This document shows, one piece after another, positions 32,757 through 61,497 of a stretch of 64,000 nucleotides of DNA. Each line of letters begins with the position of its first letter. Position 1 is the stretch's first letter. The DNA comes from Hwanghaeella grinnelliae. Lineage in GTDB: Bacteria; Pseudomonadota; Alphaproteobacteria; UBA8366; Aestuariispiraceae. The position numbers and the translations under genes were made by a program. Under the pieces are notes generated by a model, which saw only the letters and a list, made by a program, of their open reading frames with translations, had not been told where the DNA came from and searched no databases. The stretch covers positions 62,001 through 126,000 of the forward strand of contig NZ_SADE01000001.1 in the NCBI RefSeq assembly GCF_004005845.1, read 5' to 3'.

Positions 32757-33452
32757 ATGGAAAATACTAAGCAAAACAGGATGAACCCAAAAGGTGAACT
32801 CGTAGCGGACCCATCCTACGGTACCTTCATGGGTAACAGGGGAATACTGCACGATGCCACTGGCGCTATCGGACACCGCCGATGGCGGCACAAAGCTTGG
32901 ATCATTTGCCTGACAGAATTCAAGGGACGGAAACGGTCTGTCATGGCGCCAAATCGCTACACTGAGTTGTTTTTCATGGATGAAGCGACGGCGCTGGCCG
33001 CAGGGCACAGGCCCTGTGCGGAATGCCGGTACAGCGACTATGTCGAGTATCGCCGGGCGGTTGAACGCGCCGGCGGTTTGTTGGCATCGGAACGCGCGGC
33101 GACCCTCGACACTGAATTGCACGGTCAGAGGGTGTGGCCGCGCCAGTTCCGACTACGCACGTGGCAGTCTGCCCTGTCGGATTTGCCTGCCGGAACAATG
33201 ATTGAACATGCGGGTCTGTGCATGCTTGTGGCTGGCCGATGGATTTTGGAATGGTCGTTCACCGGATACCGGATAGCGGCCGAGAAAAATACTTTCGGAC
33301 CGAGCACGGTTACCGTCCTAACGCCCCAGACGACCGTGACGGCCCTGATTGGTGGCTACGAGCCGGCGGTGCATTGGTCCGCCGTCCTTGATGAGGCTGG
33401 GTTGAGAAGCGATCGAGCGGTCTTCTCCAAGCTTGTCGGACAAAAATATTAG
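32757..33452 (+). CDS. Conserved hypothetical protein with CxxC motif
   Basis: A 231-residue soluble protein without an assigned function. The N-terminal half contains MGNRGILHDATG, RRWRHKAWIICLTEFKGRKR and TELFFMDEATALAAGHRPCAEC, an arrangement of basic residues and a CxxC pair that I recall from uncharacterised alphaproteobacterial proteins. The CAEC pair with nearby His could bind Zn or heme. An internal ATG at 32781 is an alternative start. No operon partner is evident; the MscS gene starts 84 bp later. Confidence 0.7.
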   Translation: MENTKQNRMNPKGELVADPSYGTFMGNRGILHDATGAIGHRRWRHKAWIICLTEFKGRKRSVMAPNRYTELFFMDEATALAAGHRPCAECRYSDYVEYRRAVERAGGLLASERAATLDTELHGQRVWPRQFRLRTWQSALSDLPAGTMIEHAGLCMLVAGRWILEWSFTGYRIAAEKNTFGPSTVTVLTPQTTVTALIGGYEPAVHWSAVLDEAGLRSDRAVFSKLVGQKY

Positions 33453-33536: not shown

Positions 33537-34376
33537 ATGGATCAGGAACAAATTACAGAAACCATAAATCACGTAATGGAACTGGCGACCGCCTATGGCC
33601 TGCAAGTGGTCGGTGCCATCATCATTTTGATCCTCGGCTGGATTGCCGCAGGGTGGGCCCGAAACGCCGCGGATAAAGGGCTCAGCAAAGTCCGGGGTAT
33701 GGACGAAACGCTTCGGTATTTCCTTTCCACGCTCGTGCGTTATCTGGTTCTGGCCGTCACCATCGTCATGGTTTTGGAACGTTTCGGTGTCCAGACCGCC
33801 AGCCTGATCGCCGTCCTGGGTGCTGCGGGCCTCGCGATCGGCCTCGCCCTGCAGGGGACGCTCAGCAATCTCGCGGCCGGGGTCATGTTGCTGTTTTTCC
33901 GGCCCTTCAAGATCGGTGACTTCGTCGACGCCGCGGGTATTTCGGGGACGGTGAAGTTGATAAGCCTGTTCACGACGGAAATGGCGACGCCGGATAACGT
34001 CAAGATCATCGTGCCGAACAAGCAATTGTGGGACACTTCAATCAAGAACTTCAGCGCCAATGCGACGCGCCGAGTCGATTTCCTGTTGGGTATTGGCTAT
34101 GGCGATGACATCGACAAGGCGTTTAAAGTGATCAAAGAAATCATCGAAAATGACGAGCGCTGCCATAAGGAGCCGGAATCGCAGATCGTTGTCGGTAATC
34201 TTGGCGATAGCTCGGTCGATATCATCGTGCGCGTCTGGTGTAAGGCCGACGATTATTGGGGGTTGAAGTTCGACCTGACCAAAGCGTTCAAACAGACCTT
34301 TGACAAGGAAGGGATCGAGATCCCTTTCCCGCAACGGGTCGTTCATATGGTTAAGGAAGGCGCCAACGACGCCTAA
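33537..34376 (+). CDS. mscS: Small-conductance mechanosensitive channel (MscS family)
   Basis: A 279-residue channel of minimal MscS length with three N-terminal membrane helices. The pore helix TM3 is seen in AVLGAAGLAIGLALQGTLSN, with the Gly/Ala pattern that lines the pore. The beta domain follows (FRPFKIGDFVDAAGISGTV, TPDNVKIIVPNKQLWDTSIKN). It releases osmolytes when the membrane is stretched. AGGTAAGGGCC precedes the start. Confidence 0.95.
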   Translation: MDQEQITETINHVMELATAYGLQVVGAIIILILGWIAAGWARNAADKGLSKVRGMDETLRYFLSTLVRYLVLAVTIVMVLERFGVQTASLIAVLGAAGLAIGLALQGTLSNLAAGVMLLFFRPFKIGDFVDAAGISGTVKLISLFTTEMATPDNVKIIVPNKQLWDTSIKNFSANATRRVDFLLGIGYGDDIDKAFKVIKEIIENDERCHKEPESQIVVGNLGDSSVDIIVRVWCKADDYWGLKFDLTKAFKQTFDKEGIEIPFPQRVVHMVKEGANDA

Positions 34377-42077: not shown

Positions 42078-43607
42078 TCACATCACAGCGCCGATTTGCC
42101 AGGGGATGAATTCGTCGTCGCCGAAGCCGAGCGACTCGGATTTGGTCTGACTGCCGGAAGCCACTTCCAGGATACGGTTGAATATCTGCTCCCCCATCTC
42201 CGCGATGGTCGCGTCGCCATCCGTCACCTGACCGCAGTTGATGTCCATATCTTCGTCCATCCGTCGATACATGGCCGTATTGGTGGCAAGTTTCAGGCTG
42301 GGAGACGGTTTGCAGCCATAGACGGATCCGCGGCCGGTCGTGAAGCAGACGACATTCGCGCCGGAAGCGACCTGACCGGTGATGGAGCAGGGGTCGTAAC
42401 CCGGACTGTCCATGAAGACGAAACCCTTTTCCCGAACAGGCTCTGCATATTTGTAGACGTCGGTCAGATTGGTTGTGCCGCCTTTTGCCGCTGCGCCCAG
42501 GGATTTTTCCAGAATGGTGGTCAGGCCGCCTTTTTTGTTGCCCGGGGATGGATTGTTGTCCATCGATCCACTGTTGATCCGGGTGTATTCCTCCCACCAC
42601 TCGATACGGTCGACCAGCTTCTGTCCCACAGCTTCATTGACGGCGCGCCGAGTTAGCAGGTGCTCAGCACCGTAAATTTCCGGCGTTTCACTCAAGATGG
42701 CGGTGCCGCCATGCCGGACCAAAAGGTCCGCTGCTGCGCCGAGCGACGGATTGGCGGTGATCCCGGAATATGCATCGGACCCACCGCATTGCAGAGCAAG
42801 CGTCAGGTGACTTGCCGAGACGGTCTGTCGCGAATAAGCATTCGCGGCCGGCAGCATTTCCCGGATCATATCCACACCGCGGGCGACGGTTTTCCGGGTG
42901 CCGCCCGTATCCTGAATGGTCATGGTCTGGAACGTCGGGCCCGGCGTGATGTTGTAAGCGTCCAGAAGGAAGTCGATTTGATTGACCTCGCAGCCGAGTC
43001 CCACCATCAGAATACCGGCGAAGTTCGGATGCTGGGCGAAGCCCCATAGGACCCGCTGCAGGTTGGCATATCCCTCGCCGGAATTTGCCATGCCGCAACC
43101 CGTCGAATGGACGAAGGACACGACACCATCGATGTTCGGGTAGTTCGCCAATTCGTCCTTTGGAAAGGACTCGGCGATATAACGGGCAACCGTTGCGGAG
43201 CAATTCACGCTGGTAAGAATGCCGATATAGTTTCGCGTGCCGACCGAACCGTTCGGCCGCACGAATCCCTGGAAATTCGCAACAGCGTCACCGGTGAAAT
43301 ATTGCGTGGGGCGCATGTCTTCGCAAAAAGCGTAGTCGCGCGCGAAGCTACGGAATTCTGCGTTGTCGGTGTGCACATGCTCGCCGGCCGCAATGTCGCG
43401 CGTCGCGAAGGCGATGATTTGGTTGTATTTGCGGATCGCCTCGTCTTTCGCGATGGGCCGGGTGGCTACTTTATGACCGGCCGGGATATGTGCCGCGGTT
43501 GTCACGGCTTCGTTCGATATCTCGGTTTCTGGAAGGATATCCGCGCGCGCGACGACGACGTTGTCGACCTCGCTGAGGCGAATGGTCAATTGTTCCTTTC
43601 CGGCCAT
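42078..43607 (-). CDS. UxaA-family (altronate/galactarate-type) dehydratase
   Basis: A 509-residue enzyme with the N-terminal SAF domain (residues ~10-100) fused to the large UxaA/GarD catalytic part. Signatures include GYVRPNGSVGTRNY-like FQGFVRPNGSVGTRNYIGIL, HSTGCGM, GLGCEVNQ, LQCGGSDAYSGITANP and DSPGYDPCSITGQVASGA. Members dehydrate sugar acids such as altronate or galactarate to 2-keto-3-deoxy acids using iron. It is transcribed away from an SDR-FAH-hydrolase operon, from a shared divergent promoter. Confidence 0.9.
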   Translation of the reverse strand: MAGKEQLTIRLSEVDNVVVARADILPETEISNEAVTTAAHIPAGHKVATRPIAKDEAIRKYNQIIAFATRDIAAGEHVHTDNAEFRSFARDYAFCEDMRPTQYFTGDAVANFQGFVRPNGSVGTRNYIGILTSVNCSATVARYIAESFPKDELANYPNIDGVVSFVHSTGCGMANSGEGYANLQRVLWGFAQHPNFAGILMVGLGCEVNQIDFLLDAYNITPGPTFQTMTIQDTGGTRKTVARGVDMIREMLPAANAYSRQTVSASHLTLALQCGGSDAYSGITANPSLGAAADLLVRHGGTAILSETPEIYGAEHLLTRRAVNEAVGQKLVDRIEWWEEYTRINSGSMDNNPSPGNKKGGLTTILEKSLGAAAKGGTTNLTDVYKYAEPVREKGFVFMDSPGYDPCSITGQVASGANVVCFTTGRGSVYGCKPSPSLKLATNTAMYRRMDEDMDINCGQVTDGDATIAEMGEQIFNRILEVASGSQTKSESLGFGDDEFIPWQIGAVM

Positions 43608-43638: not shown

Positions 43639-43667
43639 TTGGCGCACAGTTGTCTGACAACTATAGT
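43639..43667 (+). promoter_or_regulatory. Sigma-70-like promoter for the SDR-FAH-mvaA operon
   Basis: TTGGCG, a 17-bp spacer, TATAGT. The spacer contains the palindrome at 43648-43662, so a bound repressor would block it. Confidence 0.65.
43648..43662. promoter_or_regulatory. Palindromic operator AGTTGTC-T-GACAACT (GntR-like)
   Basis: A perfect 15-bp inverted repeat with 7-bp arms. TTGTCTGACAA is a common core of GntR-family sites at sugar-acid genes. It lies between divergent promoters. No GntR gene is in the window. Confidence 0.65.
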
Positions 43668-43732: not shown

Positions 43733-44470
43733 ATGGCCGGACGTCTTGCTGGAAAAAAATGCCTTATCACGGCGGCGGCGAATGGCATTGGCCGCGCCTC
43801 CGCGGAACTTTTCGCGGCGGAAGGTGGTCAGGTTATCGCCACTGACCTGAATGAACAGTCGCTCGCGGCACTGGCGGGTACGCCGAATATCGAAACCCGG
43901 GTTCTGGACGTTCTGAACGCAGATGCCATTTCGGCAATTGCGGAGGATCTGGGCGCAGTCGATGTGCTGTTCAATTGCGCAGGGTATGTCCATATGGGCG
44001 GAATTTTCGACTGCGACGACAAGGACTGGGATTTTTCCTTCGACCTGAATGTCAAAGCCATGTTCCACATGTGTAAAGCCTTCCTGCCGAAAATGGTCGA
44101 AGCGGGCGGTGGCAGCATCGTCAATATGTGCTCGGTCGCGGGTGCGGTGACAGGTGCGCCGAACCGTTTGGCGTACGGCGCCAGCAAGGGCGCCGTGCTG
44201 GGTTTGACCCGATCGCTCGCCGCGGATTTTGTGACGCAGGGCATTCGCGTTAACGCGATTTGTCCCGGCACGGTGGAAACGCCCAGTCTGCATGACCGGA
44301 TCGAGCAATCGGGTGGTGAAACGGCGCGCCAAGCCTTCATCGCGCGTCAGCCCATGGGCCGGCTCGGTACAGCCGAAGAAATTGCGAACCTGGCGCTGTA
44401 TCTGGCGTCGGACGAGTCGTCTTACACGACGGGTCAGCCATACATCGTCGACGGTGGTTGGTGCATCTAA
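43733..44470 (+). CDS. SDR, resembling 2-keto-3-deoxy-L-fuconate dehydrogenase
   Basis: A 245-residue SDR. The coenzyme site is TAAANGIGRASAELFAAEGG with an Asp (ATDLNE), favouring NAD. Catalytic residues are Ser in NMCSVAGAV and YGASKG. It resembles the BDH2/2-keto-3-deoxy-L-fuconate dehydrogenase branch (DVLFNCAGYVHMGGI, IRVNAICPGTVETPSL). In the known L-fucose acid pathway this step precedes an FAH-family hydrolase, and such a gene follows 43 bp downstream. Confidence 0.85.
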   Translation: MAGRLAGKKCLITAAANGIGRASAELFAAEGGQVIATDLNEQSLAALAGTPNIETRVLDVLNADAISAIAEDLGAVDVLFNCAGYVHMGGIFDCDDKDWDFSFDLNVKAMFHMCKAFLPKMVEAGGGSIVNMCSVAGAVTGAPNRLAYGASKGAVLGLTRSLAADFVTQGIRVNAICPGTVETPSLHDRIEQSGGETARQAFIARQPMGRLGTAEEIANLALYLASDESSYTTGQPYIVDGGWCI

Positions 44471-44513: not shown

Positions 44514-45362
44514 ATGAAGCTGTTGCGCTTTGGGGAGGCCGGTTCCGAGAAGCCGGGCATGTTGGATGCGGATGGCAATATCCGTGATTTGTCGGGCGTA
44601 GTCGCCGATATCGACGGGGCGCTGTTCTCCGGCCCCGACATGGACAAGCTTCGGGCGATGGATCCCACCAGCCTGCCGCTTGTTGAGGGTAATCCGCGCA
44701 TCGGGCCTTGTGTCGCGAATGTGCCGAAGTTCATTTGCGTCGGCCTCAATTATACCGACCATGCCGCGGAAACCGGGCAGCCGATGCCCTCGCACCCGCT
44801 TATTTTCGCCAAGGCGACCAGCGCGATCGTCGGTCCGGACGATGATGTCGTCATTCCGCGCGGTTCCGAAAAATCCGATTGGGAAGTTGAATTGGCCATC
44901 GTGATCGGCAAGAAAGCGTCCTATGTGTCGGAAGAGGAGGCGCTGGATTGCATTGCCGGGTATTGCATTGCGAACGACGTTTCCGAGCGGAGTTATCAAT
45001 TCGACTATGCCGGCCAATGGACCAAAGGGAAGAGCTGCGACACCTTCGGGCCGATCGGGCCGTGGCTGGTGACGCCGGATGAAGTGGCCGACCCGCACGA
45101 CCTGAAAATGTATTGCGCGATCAACGGTCACCGCTATCAGGACGGCAGCACGAACACGATGTTCTTCAAGGTTGCCCATCAGATCAGCCATATCAGTGAA
45201 TTCATGACGCTTATGCCGGGTGACATCATCTCCACCGGCACACCCCCGGGCGTGGGCGCCGGACAAAACCCGCAGGTGTTCCTAAAGCCGGGTGACGTCA
45301 TGGAATTGGGCATCGAAGGTCTCGGCACGCAGCGTCAAACCTGCGTCGCCTGGTCTCGTTAA
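44514..45362 (+). CDS. Fumarylacetoacetate hydrolase-family protein (acylpyruvate/diketo acid hydrolase)
   Basis: A 282-residue FAH-family enzyme preceded by AGGAGAAGAAA. The metal site is seen as the ExE in DWEVELAIVIGK; FICVGLNYTDHAAE holds a conserved Asp-His pair, and GDIISTGTPPGVG is the usual C-terminal motif. The close relative group includes 2,4-diketo-3-deoxy-L-fuconate hydrolase and ureidoglycolate lyase. With the SDR upstream the first is the better fit: it would cleave a diketo acid to pyruvate plus a second acid. Confidence 0.85.
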   Translation: MKLLRFGEAGSEKPGMLDADGNIRDLSGVVADIDGALFSGPDMDKLRAMDPTSLPLVEGNPRIGPCVANVPKFICVGLNYTDHAAETGQPMPSHPLIFAKATSAIVGPDDDVVIPRGSEKSDWEVELAIVIGKKASYVSEEEALDCIAGYCIANDVSERSYQFDYAGQWTKGKSCDTFGPIGPWLVTPDEVADPHDLKMYCAINGHRYQDGSTNTMFFKVAHQISHISEFMTLMPGDIISTGTPPGVGAGQNPQVFLKPGDVMELGIEGLGTQRQTCVAWSR

Positions 45363-45377
45363 AGGCCGGGGGAAATC

Positions 45378-46658
45378 GTGTCGGAAACCGGTTCCAGGAT
45401 TGCAGGATTCCATTCCCTTTCGCCGCAAGAGCGGCTGGACGCCGTTACCCACCGCAGCGGTTTGGGTAACGAAGGGAAATCGCATTTGATCGAAGCGGGC
45501 GGGGCCTTGGTCGAGCTCGCCGATCATCTTTCGGAAAACGTCATCGGGACCATGAATGTCCCTTTGGGGGTTGCCACGAACCTCATTGTCGATGGGGAAG
45601 AAGTGTTGGTGCCGATGGCGACCGAGGAATCTTCGGTCATTGCCGCCGTCTGCAATGCGGCCAAGCAATGCCGAGATACCGGCGGGGTTACCGCAACTTG
45701 GACCGGTCCGCAGATGATTGCCCAAGTTCAGATTCTGAATTCCCCTGATCCGGAAGCGGCGAAACAGGCGTTGCTGGATCGGCGGGACGAGATCAAAGCG
45801 TCCTGCGACGCCTGCGACCCGATGCTGCTGAAACTGGGTGGCGGATTCCGGGACATTGAAGTTCGGGTATTGGACACTCGCATTGGTCCGATGGTGATCC
45901 TGCACCTGATCGTCGATACGCGTGACGCGATGGGGGCCAATGCCGTCAACACGATGGCGGAAAAGTTGGCACCGCATGTGGAGACTTGGACCGGCGGTAA
46001 GGTGAAGCTCCGCATCCTCTCAAATCTGGCGGATCGTCGTGTGGTCACCGTTCGCGGTGTCTGGCGGACGGAGACAATCGGCGGCGAGGATGTTCGGGAC
46101 GGCATGATAGCCGCGTCGGCCTTTGCCGATGCAGATCCCTATCGTGCCGCGACCCATAATAAAGGCATCATGAACGGCATCAGCGCCGTCGTGTTGGCAA
46201 CGGGCAACGACACGCGCGCAATCGAAGCCGGCGCGCATGCCTTTGCTTCCCGGTCGGGGCGTTATACGGCGCTCAGCACTTGGGACAAGACGCCGGAAGG
46301 CGACTTGGAAGGCGTCATGGAAATACCCATGGCGGTCGGCATCGTCGGCGGGGCCACCAAAGTTCACCCGACTGCGCAGGCCTGCCTCAAGATCATGGGC
46401 GTGTCCAATGCGGAACGCTTGGCTAAGGTCGCGGCCGCCGTAGGCTTGGTTCAGAATTTTTCCGCGCTGAAAGCGTTGGCCACAACGGGTATCCAGGCCG
46501 GGCATATGAGGCTTCATGCGCAGAACCTTGCCATCACTGTTGGCGCAACCGGCGACGAAATCGAAGCTGTTGCGGCCATAATCGTCGCCCGCGGCGAAAT
46601 TCGTGAAGACGCCGCGCAGGCGGCTCTGGAACAGATCCGTTCCGGCCCCGGCAGCTAA
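45378..46658 (+). CDS. mvaA: Class II (degradative-type) HMG-CoA reductase
   Basis: A 426-residue protein starting at GTG 45378 behind GGGGGA. All four catalytic residues match the Pseudomonas mevalonii enzyme at almost identical positions: Glu83 (ATEESS), Lys262 (NKGIMNG), Asp278 (GNDTRA) and His376 (GHMRLH). Other signatures are ENVIGTMNVPLGVA and MAVGIVGGATKVHP. Class II enzymes interconvert HMG-CoA and mevalonate, usually with NAD. It sits 15 bp after the FAH gene, so it is co-transcribed with sugar-acid-type genes. No HMG-CoA lyase or mevalonate kinase is in the window, so the role is unclear. Confidence 0.93.
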   Translation: MSETGSRIAGFHSLSPQERLDAVTHRSGLGNEGKSHLIEAGGALVELADHLSENVIGTMNVPLGVATNLIVDGEEVLVPMATEESSVIAAVCNAAKQCRDTGGVTATWTGPQMIAQVQILNSPDPEAAKQALLDRRDEIKASCDACDPMLLKLGGGFRDIEVRVLDTRIGPMVILHLIVDTRDAMGANAVNTMAEKLAPHVETWTGGKVKLRILSNLADRRVVTVRGVWRTETIGGEDVRDGMIAASAFADADPYRAATHNKGIMNGISAVVLATGNDTRAIEAGAHAFASRSGRYTALSTWDKTPEGDLEGVMEIPMAVGIVGGATKVHPTAQACLKIMGVSNAERLAKVAAAVGLVQNFSALKALATTGIQAGHMRLHAQNLAITVGATGDEIEAVAAIIVARGEIREDAAQAALEQIRSGPGS

Positions 46659-46671
46659 TCGTCGTTTATTT

Positions 46672-47595
46672 GTGACCGCGATTTCCAACGACACCTCGAC
46701 GCAAACGCAGCATCCACTCCGTGCAGCCGGTTGGATGTTCGGCGCGTTGTTATCTTTCAGTACGTTGGCGGTTGCGGCCCGTAATGTTTCGGAGGAACTG
46801 GACACGTTCCAGCTTATGTTCTTCCGCAGTGTGATCATGCTGGCGATGGTCGTGTCCATTGGGATGCTGTCGCCCGGTGGACTGGGCCAATTCAGGACCA
46901 AGAATCTCAAAGGCCACCTGGCCAGGAATTGTGCCCACTTCGTCGGGCAGTTCGGCTGGTTCTTCGGTGTCGCGGCGATCCCGCTGGCCCAGGTTGTTGC
47001 CATCGAGTTCACAACACCCCTTTGGATTGGCGTTTTCGCACCATTCCTGTTGGGCGAGCGCATGACCCTGGTTCGCGGCTTGGTTCTTGTGGTGGGGTTC
47101 AGCGGGGTGTTGGTCGTGGTGCGCCCGTGGGAAGCGGAAATTCAGGCAGGCTCCGTCGCTGTCATGGTTGCCGCGGTTGGGTTCGCACTCTCTATGATCA
47201 CAACCAAGCGGCTCACACGGTCCGACAGTGTTCTTTGCATTTTGTTTTATATGGGGTTGATGCAGGCCCCAATGGGCCTGTTGCCTGCGCTGTGGTCATG
47301 GGTTATGCCGGGGCCGGAGGTTTGGGCCTGGATGGTTCTGATCTCCACTTGCGGGATGTCGGCACATTTCTGCCTCGCCAAGGCCTTGTCCTCCGCCGAT
47401 GCGCTGGTTGTCGCCCCTATGGATTATCTGCGCCTGCCGGTTTTCGCCTTGGTTGGTTATGTTTTCTTCGCCGAAACTGTGGGTATTGAGGTCGTCCTGG
47501 GGGGATTGGTGATCTTGATTAGCAATTGGCTGAACACGTGGTTGGAGGCGCGCCGGACCCGGCGGGCGAGAGCGGCTGCGGCGATTTCCTCTTAA
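46672..47595 (+). CDS. EamA/DMT-family transporter
   Basis: A 307-residue membrane protein with ten hydrophobic segments in two EamA repeats (GALLSFSTLAVAARNVSE ... IEFTTPLWIGVFAPFLLGER; CLAKALSSADALVVAPMDYLRLP). The start is probably the GTG at 46672, only 13 bp after mvaA; no clear ribosome-binding site is visible. It is the last gene of the operon and likely exports or imports a metabolite. Confidence 0.85.
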   Translation: MTAISNDTSTQTQHPLRAAGWMFGALLSFSTLAVAARNVSEELDTFQLMFFRSVIMLAMVVSIGMLSPGGLGQFRTKNLKGHLARNCAHFVGQFGWFFGVAAIPLAQVVAIEFTTPLWIGVFAPFLLGERMTLVRGLVLVVGFSGVLVVVRPWEAEIQAGSVAVMVAAVGFALSMITTKRLTRSDSVLCILFYMGLMQAPMGLLPALWSWVMPGPEVWAWMVLISTCGMSAHFCLAKALSSADALVVAPMDYLRLPVFALVGYVFFAETVGIEVVLGGLVILISNWLNTWLEARRTRRARAAAAISS

Positions 47596-60444: not shown

Positions 60445-61497
60445 ATGAAACTATCCAATCTTGTGAAAACGGCGGCCATGGCCGGGATCGTCGGCGCGGT
60501 GACGCTGACGACGGCGGCCGATCCGGTCGAGGCCAAGACCCGATGGAAAATGCATGCGGCCTACGCGTCGACGGTTGCCGTCATCGGTCAGCCGTCGCGG
60601 CGTGTCGCTGCGGCTGTCGACGCCATGTCCGACGGCGACTTCGCGATCAAGGTTGAAGAGCCGGGCGCGCTTGTCGGCGGCTTTGCCTATTTCGACCCAG
60701 TATCGCAGGGCGCCTTCCAAGCGGCCTGGGGCACCTCCGGCGCGAACCAGGGTAAGAATTCCGCTTTCTCATTCCTCTCGTCCTGGCCCTTCGGCCCGGC
60801 CGCGCCAGAATTCGTGGCGTGGTTCAAGTATGGCGGCGGCCTGCAATTGGCCGAGGAGCTCTACGCCCGCGACAATATCAAGTTCGTGCTCTGCGGCATG
60901 ATTCCTCCGGAAACTTCCGGCTGGTTCCGTGAAGAGATCACCAGTCTCGATCAATTGAAGGGCCTGAAAATGCGCTTCTTCGGCGTCGGCGCCAAGGTCA
61001 TGCAGAGGTTCGGCGTTTCCACGCAGCAACTCGCGGCGGCGGATATCTATCCGGCGCTGGAACGCGGTACGATCGACGCGACCGAGTTCTCCATGCCGGC
61101 GATCGACATTACGCTGGGTCTGAACCAGATCGCCAAGCATAACTACTATCCGGGTTGGCACCAGCAATCGACGTCGAACGAATTGCTGGTCAACATGGAC
61201 GCTTGGAACGATTTGACGGACGCACAACGGGCGATGCTGAACACGTCCTGCGATGCGCAGATTGCTGAGATGATCGCCGAAGGCGAAGCGGTGCAGTTCC
61301 AGGCGATGAAGGACAACGTCGCAGCTGGCGTGACCCTTCACCGTTGGCCACAGGAAGTCTTGGATCAATTCAAAGCGGCCTGGGAAGACGTCCTGGCCGA
61401 GGAACTGGCGGCGAACCCCGACTCAAAGAAGATCTGGGAATCGATCTCCACGTTCCGCGAGAACTTTAAGATTTGGAAGGACATGGGCTACCTCTAA
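60445..61497 (+). CDS. Orphan TRAP transporter substrate-binding protein (DctP family)
   Basis: A 350-residue binding protein with a signal peptide (KTAAMAGIVGAVTLTTAADP) and a strong GGGGAGG site. DctP-family features include KGLKMRFFGVGAKVMQRFGV and ERGTIDATEFSMPAIDITLG, in the ligand region. It is not closely similar to the DctP at 24634. No dctQ/dctM genes are adjacent, so it must use permeases encoded elsewhere or be a remnant of a lost operon. Confidence 0.9.
   Translation: MKLSNLVKTAAMAGIVGAVTLTTAADPVEAKTRWKMHAAYASTVAVIGQPSRRVAAAVDAMSDGDFAIKVEEPGALVGGFAYFDPVSQGAFQAAWGTSGANQGKNSAFSFLSSWPFGPAAPEFVAWFKYGGGLQLAEELYARDNIKFVLCGMIPPETSGWFREEITSLDQLKGLKMRFFGVGAKVMQRFGVSTQQLAAADIYPALERGTIDATEFSMPAIDITLGLNQIAKHNYYPGWHQQSTSNELLVNMDAWNDLTDAQRAMLNTSCDAQIAEMIAEGEAVQFQAMKDNVAAGVTLHRWPQEVLDQFKAAWEDVLAEELAANPDSKKIWESISTFRENFKIWKDMGYL

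Follow-up and report, generated by a model that had tools for sequence, protein, structure and literature searches.

The window analysed here, a 64,000-nucleotide stretch of the Hwanghaeella grinnelliae genome, contains at positions 45378–46658 (+) an intact open reading frame with a GTG start that encodes a class II, degradative-type HMG-CoA reductase (HMGR; mvaA-like) of 426 amino acids. The gene lies third in a plus-strand run with the order SDR-FAH-HMGR-EamA, in which successive genes are separated by only 43, 15 and 13 nt. The run begins with an SDR of the L-KDF/D-KDP 4-dehydrogenase type (FucF-like; 43733–44470, +), continues with a FAH-family 2,4-diketo-3-deoxy acid hydrolase (FucG/LRA6-like; 44514–45362, +) and ends behind HMGR with an EamA-family transporter (PF00892; 46672–47595, +), the start of which is better placed at the GTG at 46672. 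A UxaA/GarD-family sugar-acid dehydratase gene (42078–43607, -) is divergent from the SDR gene across 125 nt. An earlier interpretation made from the DNA letters and their open reading frames (the sequence-only reading) had listed all four of these genes as HMGR partners in one operon. This holds for SDR, FAH and EamA, which share the HMGR strand, whereas the UxaA-family gene is on the opposite strand and is therefore a divergent partner outside the predicted SDR-FAH-HMGR-EamA transcript. Scans for promoters and terminators gave counts close to background, with 3 promoters where 1.5 were expected and 6 terminators where 5.5 were. The operon contains neither an HMG-CoA lyase nor a mevalonate kinase gene, as had been noted from the letters, and no MocR, TRAP/TctA/LivK or other uptake system was found in the gene run of HMGR itself.

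Comparison of the partner proteins with characterized enzymes pointed to acid-sugar catabolism. In the Route III pathway for D-arabinose and L-fucose of Herbaspirillum huttiense, a UxaA/GarD dehydratase acts together with a 4-dehydrogenase and a 2,4-dioxo acid hydrolase (PMC6336799, PMC11199699), and by family the window encodes this complete D-arabinonate/L-fuconate set. The best solved relative of the SDR was 8y11, with 8y46 and 8y4b also among the closest (320 bits); 8Y11 and 8Y4B both show L-KDFDH, the L-2-keto-3-deoxyfuconate 4-dehydrogenase of H. huttiense, in which the substrate is held by Arg148, Arg192 and Arg214 (PMC11199699). Residues R145, R189 and R205 of the window SDR appear to be the counterparts of this arginine triad, at a constant offset of four. 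The best match of the FAH protein was 8gsr, an L-2,4-diketo-3-deoxyrhamnonate hydrolase (336 bits), and its 421.6 bits under the curated model for that hydrolase (NF053535) fell short of the required 500; it belongs to the same family, though not necessarily with the same substrate. H83 and E86, the catalytic residues named for the H. huttiense hydrolase (PMC6336799), are both present. The UxaA-family protein (PF20629, PF04295 and SAF) was most similar to galactarate dehydratase 6u7l (325 bits), yet its score of 393.6 is far below the galactarate dehydratase cut-off of 730.85. The window thus has three protein families in common with H. huttiense Route III, including the SDR arginine triad and the H83/E86 pair of FAH, and differs from it in the HMGR and EamA genes appended to the set. 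Substrate would pass from the UxaA-type dehydratase to the SDR 4-dehydrogenase and then to the FAH hydrolase, which would release pyruvate together with glycolate or lactate. The sequence-only reading had proposed a link to the degradation of branched acids; this found no support, as the SDR and FAH proteins carry the signatures of a 2-keto-3-deoxy-pentonate/fuconate route.

The HMGR is the sole match in its own genome (5.32 Mb, 97.85% complete) to TIGR00532, 'hydroxymethylglutaryl-CoA reductase, degradative', where its 445.3 bits lie well above the cut-off of 259.95; its PF00368 score was 358.6 bits. The nearest solved structures were 9v7y, 6dio and 1qax (427–431 bits), and the protein shares 53% identity with an enzyme of solved structure, with 215 of 406 paired residues identical to Pseudomonas mevalonii MvaA (1qax). 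In this alignment the equivalents of E83, S85, R261, T264, K267, N271, D283, A368, L372, I377, H381 and H385 are all unchanged. Among these we take E83, K267, D283 and H381 to be the catalytic positions and S85, R261 and N271 to bind HMG; all seven are invariant across the 32-row clade of the HMGR tree that includes the window protein (see below). The class II assignment and the conservation of catalytic residues put forward in the sequence-only reading were therefore borne out by the TIGR00532 score and the 1qax alignment.

Cofactor-selecting positions were likewise compared with P. mevalonii MvaA, in which NADH use is determined by D146, L148 and L152 (PMC10070635), and the corresponding helix motif has been published as Dx(V/L)xxxL (PMC13370337). 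In the window HMGR two of the three determinants, D146 and L152, are kept and L148 is replaced by Met, such that its helix D-P-M-L-L-K-L fits the first and last motif positions and has Met at the third. Across the 32-row clade the Asp is present in 32/32 sequences, the last Leu in 24/32 and Val or Leu at the third position in 14/32. An alphaproteobacterial HMGR, that of Ruegeria pomeroyi, was demonstrated to oxidise mevalonate with NAD (PMC12292504), and the same direction and substrate would be expected of the window enzyme. Differences from P. mevalonii MvaA comprise P84S, W284T, L148M, E375T, R387Q and R379A. The residue of the window protein is common within the clade at most of these positions (S84 in 32/32, T284 in 31/32, Q387 in 21/32, T375 in 16/32 and M148 in 9/32), and A379, a change close to the catalytic His, is found in 2/32, namely the window and its congener G001. 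P. mevalonii carries an mvaAB pair encoding HMGR and lyase; unlike that arrangement, the window HMGR has no adjoining mvaB lyase gene.

The gene neighbours of HMGR relatives were surveyed, as the sequence-only reading had suggested, at 80 genome_contigs HMGR loci, the best 80 of at least 590 relatives with archaea and Chloroflexota included. Neighbours were labelled by tblastn (E 1e-15), and matches below half of the query length were excluded. Among these best 80 of at least 590 loci, MocR was found near HMGR in 23, TRAP DctM and TRAP binding proteins in 13 each, HMG-CoA lyase in 10, TctA in 9, LivK-type proteins in 7 and SDR-family proteins in 5, while FAH and UxaA were found in 0/80; these counts are lower bounds, as just 49 of the 80 loci reach 15 kb. 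In an HMGR tree of 93 rows (L088 was omitted as a weak match, and L173 and L174 as members of the same genus as L087), the window HMGR paired with that of G001 (support 100/99). Four alphaproteobacterial MAG copies, three of them labelled Rhodobacteraceae, joined next (99/97), and this six-row subclade was nested in the 32-row clade (100/100). At least one of MocR, TRAP, TctA, LivK-type or HMG-CoA lyase was nearby in 23 of the 32 clade rows, 21 by labels and two, G327 and G235, from larger stretches. No such neighbour was seen in nine rows: the six of the subclade (window, G001 and MAGs), L084 despite 18 kb of sequence, and the short contigs L007 and L010. MocR, TRAP, TctA, LivK and lyase genes are absent from the examined flanks of the six-row subclade, where the upstream flank of L019 spans about 1 kb, and the window HMGR is therefore tied to mevalonate uptake by wider kinship only.

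That wider kinship includes clusters in which MocR and a TRAP, TctA or LivK system accompany HMGR, as in L011 (Thalassospira), L015 (Vreelandella) and L006 (Methylobacterium), all in the same 100/100 clade as the window. In the window, unlike these, HMGR follows FAH and lacks MocR, TRAP/TctA/LivK and lyase neighbours. We read such clusters of Proteobacteria as putative mevalonate operons, and their neighbour contexts would fit import of mevalonate followed by breakdown to acetoacetate and acetyl-CoA by way of HMG-CoA. In G093 a 3-oxoacid CoA-transferase-type pair lies within 9 kb of HMGR. In another proteobacterial clade the rows inspected, which include G010, have the same EEPS motif as P. 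mevalonii, and in G010 and G379 MocR and HMGR genes occur with ABC transporter genes, with a lyase also present in G379. MocR-HMGR clusters with ABC genes are seen at L184 (6–10597) and L186 (5630–15455); both include BPD_transp_2, Peripla_BP_4 is found in L186, and L184 also holds an HMG-CoA lyase-like gene. The ABC systems of L184 and L186 may be considered candidate mevalonate importers.

The acid-sugar genes were then compared among relatives with and without HMGR. G001 was the only other genome of the genus returned by the search, and the genus is known here from two genomes. In G001 the FAH gene (93% identity, cut by the contig end) adjoins HMGR (79%), and the right flank matches the window in its cold-shock, AlsS and ALDH genes. 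The left flank, on a second contig, matches in its UxaA, amidase, MFS and molybdopterin enzyme genes, and the UxaA-SDR-FAH link is not visible because the gap between the two contigs takes in SDR together with the beginning of FAH. The association of HMGR with acid-sugar catabolism through FAH is thus real as gene order in two genomes. In G007, which belongs to the same family and another genus, the gene order is conserved, a MOPT-Amidase-UxaA group being divergent from SDR-FAH, with identities of 80% (UxaA), 71% (SDR) and 80% (FAH). Neither HMGR nor EamA directly follows FAH there, and no HMGR match was found in the G007 genome. At the order level, UxaA, SDR and FAH share a single contig with an aldehyde dehydrogenase in each of G023 and G029; HMGR does not accompany them, and no HMGR match was found in either genome (78% and 88% complete, respectively); the G029 contig adds a PfkB kinase, an SMP-30 lactonase and an ABC permease. 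G016 was considered as a further example of the module and set aside, as it carries UxaA but the search found no FAH in it. Family searches with a 395-aa protein encoded beside UxaA in G023 gave no match.

HMGR itself was sparsely distributed: counting its own genome, it was found in 7 of 98 genomes, among them the weak match of G097 (24% identity), and in 13 of 385 sampled from the class. The module without HMGR in G007, together with UxaA, SDR and FAH without HMGR in G023 and G029, led us to reject an ancient, integral role of HMGR in the module. With the HMGR-less module in G007 and the FAH-HMGR pair in G001, the most simple interpretation would be that HMGR joined a pre-existing divergent acid-sugar operon, behind FAH, in the ancestor of the genus. 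The placement of EamA is a rearrangement within the family: a homologue with 53% identity lies about 6.8 kb downstream of FAH in G007, and EamA is missing behind HMGR in G001.

The sequence-only reading had offered a new acyl-CoA substrate as one outcome, and HMGR could in principle act in the acid-sugar pathway itself, on a different (hydroxy)acyl-CoA formed from the lactate, glycolate or branched analogue that FAH releases. The tight spacing of FAH and HMGR in both the window and G001 would be consistent with such a role, as would the lack of a mevalonate transporter or regulator beside HMGR and of the usual neighbours in the examined flanks of the six-row subclade. However, every HMG-contacting residue checked is kept, the related genomes described above have the acid-sugar genes without HMGR, and Route III as set out in the H. 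huttiense reports ends in free acids without calling for a CoA step (PMC6336799, PMC11199699). We consider this role quite improbable, and the proposal of a new substrate is unsupported because the HMG-binding residues are unchanged and the clade, often found beside uptake genes, MocR and HMG-CoA lyase, has neighbours that fit mevalonate.

Alternatively, HMGR may be a bystander that hitchhiked into place behind FAH and confers weak or no current benefit. The absence of mevalonate-type neighbours in its subclade and the presence of EamA behind HMGR in the window but not in G001 would agree with this, but the frame is intact, the catalytic residues are kept and dN/dS between the window and G001 copies is about 0.10, a rough value because dS is saturated (eight neighbours gave 0.04–0.17). 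This value indicates that HMGR has been kept under constraint since the split, and a bystander role is very improbable.

The genome provides a plausible downstream route away from the window. An HMG-CoA lyase gene is located at G000:C4:762856 (NF004283, 466 bits), where it adjoins a methylcrotonyl-CoA carboxylase alpha-type gene (PF21139), and 3-oxoacid CoA-transferase A and B subunits are encoded elsewhere (TIGR02428 and TIGR02429, both over cut-off). The lack of lyase and kinase in the operon is thus a local feature with regard to the lyase, and a mevalonate-type kinase was not found in the genome, the sole GHMP kinases being IspE and an HddA-like sugar kinase.

Class II HMGRs make mevalonate for isoprenoids in Gram-positive bacteria and archaea, and the sequence-only reading had named a standard mevalonate pathway that depends on this gene for isoprenoids alone as the finding that would refute it. 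No such pathway emerged: the genome instead has the MEP pathway genes IspG and IspE, through which its isoprenoids are made, and the HMGR scores as the degradative NAD type. With mevalonate kinase not found in the 97.85% complete genome, the anabolic pathway was rejected, and we regard it as scarcely credible.

A perfect palindrome, AGTTGTC-T-GACAACT, occupies positions 43648–43662 in the divergent UxaA/SDR promoter region and is a candidate operator. We take its core, TTGTCNGACAA, to resemble GntR-family operators. Two copies of this core are present in the window, where shuffles would give 0.03, in a count for which the motif was picked after the site was noticed. The second TTGTCNGACAA site, at 33433–33443, precedes a gene at 33537 by about 90 bp, and the two positions may be candidate sites of one GntR-type regulator. 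The palindrome suggests that HMGR expression has come under acid-sugar control. The corresponding intergenic region of G007 lacks it, and the G001 contig ends 80 bp from UxaA.

This raises the alternative that mevalonate and a fuconate- or arabinonate-type acid arrive together, from one glycoconjugate or exudate, with a single regulator controlling the use of both. The candidate operator at the operon head and the FAH-HMGR adjacency in both genomes of the genus are in agreement with joint arrival, as is a gene arrangement in another genus (G327 and G235), where an HMGR-TRAP operon faces split-UxaA and RraA-like genes in convergent orientation. This is a second, looser meeting of HMGR with UxaA-family genes, but the UxaA there is distant (33%) and on the other strand from HMGR, neither UxaA nor FAH was near HMGR at any of the best 80 of at least 590 loci, and no known compound of the kind was identified. 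We therefore consider joint arrival unlikely. A slim but real chance may be given to a broader form of the idea for this genus. Either one unrecognised natural source, for example a deoxysugar conjugate carrying mevalonyl or HMG groups, would tie mevalonate use into a fuconate/arabinonate-type regulon, or HMGR would have moved to a related branched acyl-CoA derived from that source. The G327 and G235 loci (L181, 2–8655; L182, 2–9034) also include an MFS gene in the convergent group, the product of which is 43–44% identical to the window MFS.

Taken together, we favour, at a probability of roughly three in four, ordinary mevalonate oxidation by an HMGR whose gene was recruited into a sugar-acid operon. 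Points that weigh against this reading are the incomplete fit to the NADH motif, the lack of mevalonate-type neighbours in the examined flanks of the six-row subclade, and the failure to find a dedicated mevalonate regulator or a close L011-type TRAP binding protein in the genome. The degradative HMGR itself looks ordinary and its location alone unusual. The enzyme would convert mevalonate, CoA and NAD+ to HMG-CoA, which the lyase encoded beside the methylcrotonyl-CoA carboxylase subunit may split, and the acetoacetate formed could be activated by the 3-oxoacid CoA-transferase. HMGR would now be co-transcribed with SDR and FAH. The link between mevalonate catabolism and acid degradation drawn in the sequence-only reading therefore stands as gene order, with FAH and HMGR adjacent in the window and G001, whereas a shared metabolite found no support and a related genus has the sugar-acid core but not HMGR.

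The enzyme alone adds little to what is known of degradative HMGRs, and the value of the locus lies in the placement of a mevalonate-degrading gene in a sugar-acid operon. A literature search of titles and the opening parts of abstracts, with most subscription journals outside its scope, returned neither an HMGR within a UxaA/SDR/FAH operon nor a natural bacterial mevalonate importer. Our survey may provide candidates for the latter in the TRAP, TctA, LivK-type and Peripla_BP_4-containing ABC systems found beside degradative-type HMGRs, and the recurring MocR regulator near these genes is a candidate mevalonate sensor.

Counterparts of these systems were sought in the rest of the H. grinnelliae genome. 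No convincing MocR match was found there (best 27% over residues 144–434), nor was a close orthologue of the TRAP binding protein (DctP) of the Thalassospira HMGR operon (L011; at most 33% identity). Two TRAP binding proteins of the genome are 48–50% identical to that of the G327/G235 HMGR-TRAP operon; binding proteins of the HMGR operons compared (L011, L181/L182 and L183) share 27–41% between types, and orthology is therefore not claimed for these matches. One of the two, encoded in the window at 60445–61497, is 48% identical to the G327/G235 one, with no DctQ or DctM called up to the window end, and may serve only as a lead. In two rhodobacteral MAGs (L019, 473–2266; L022, 7491–9254) the HMGR gene follows genes for small secreted repeat proteins that are curlin-like by eye.
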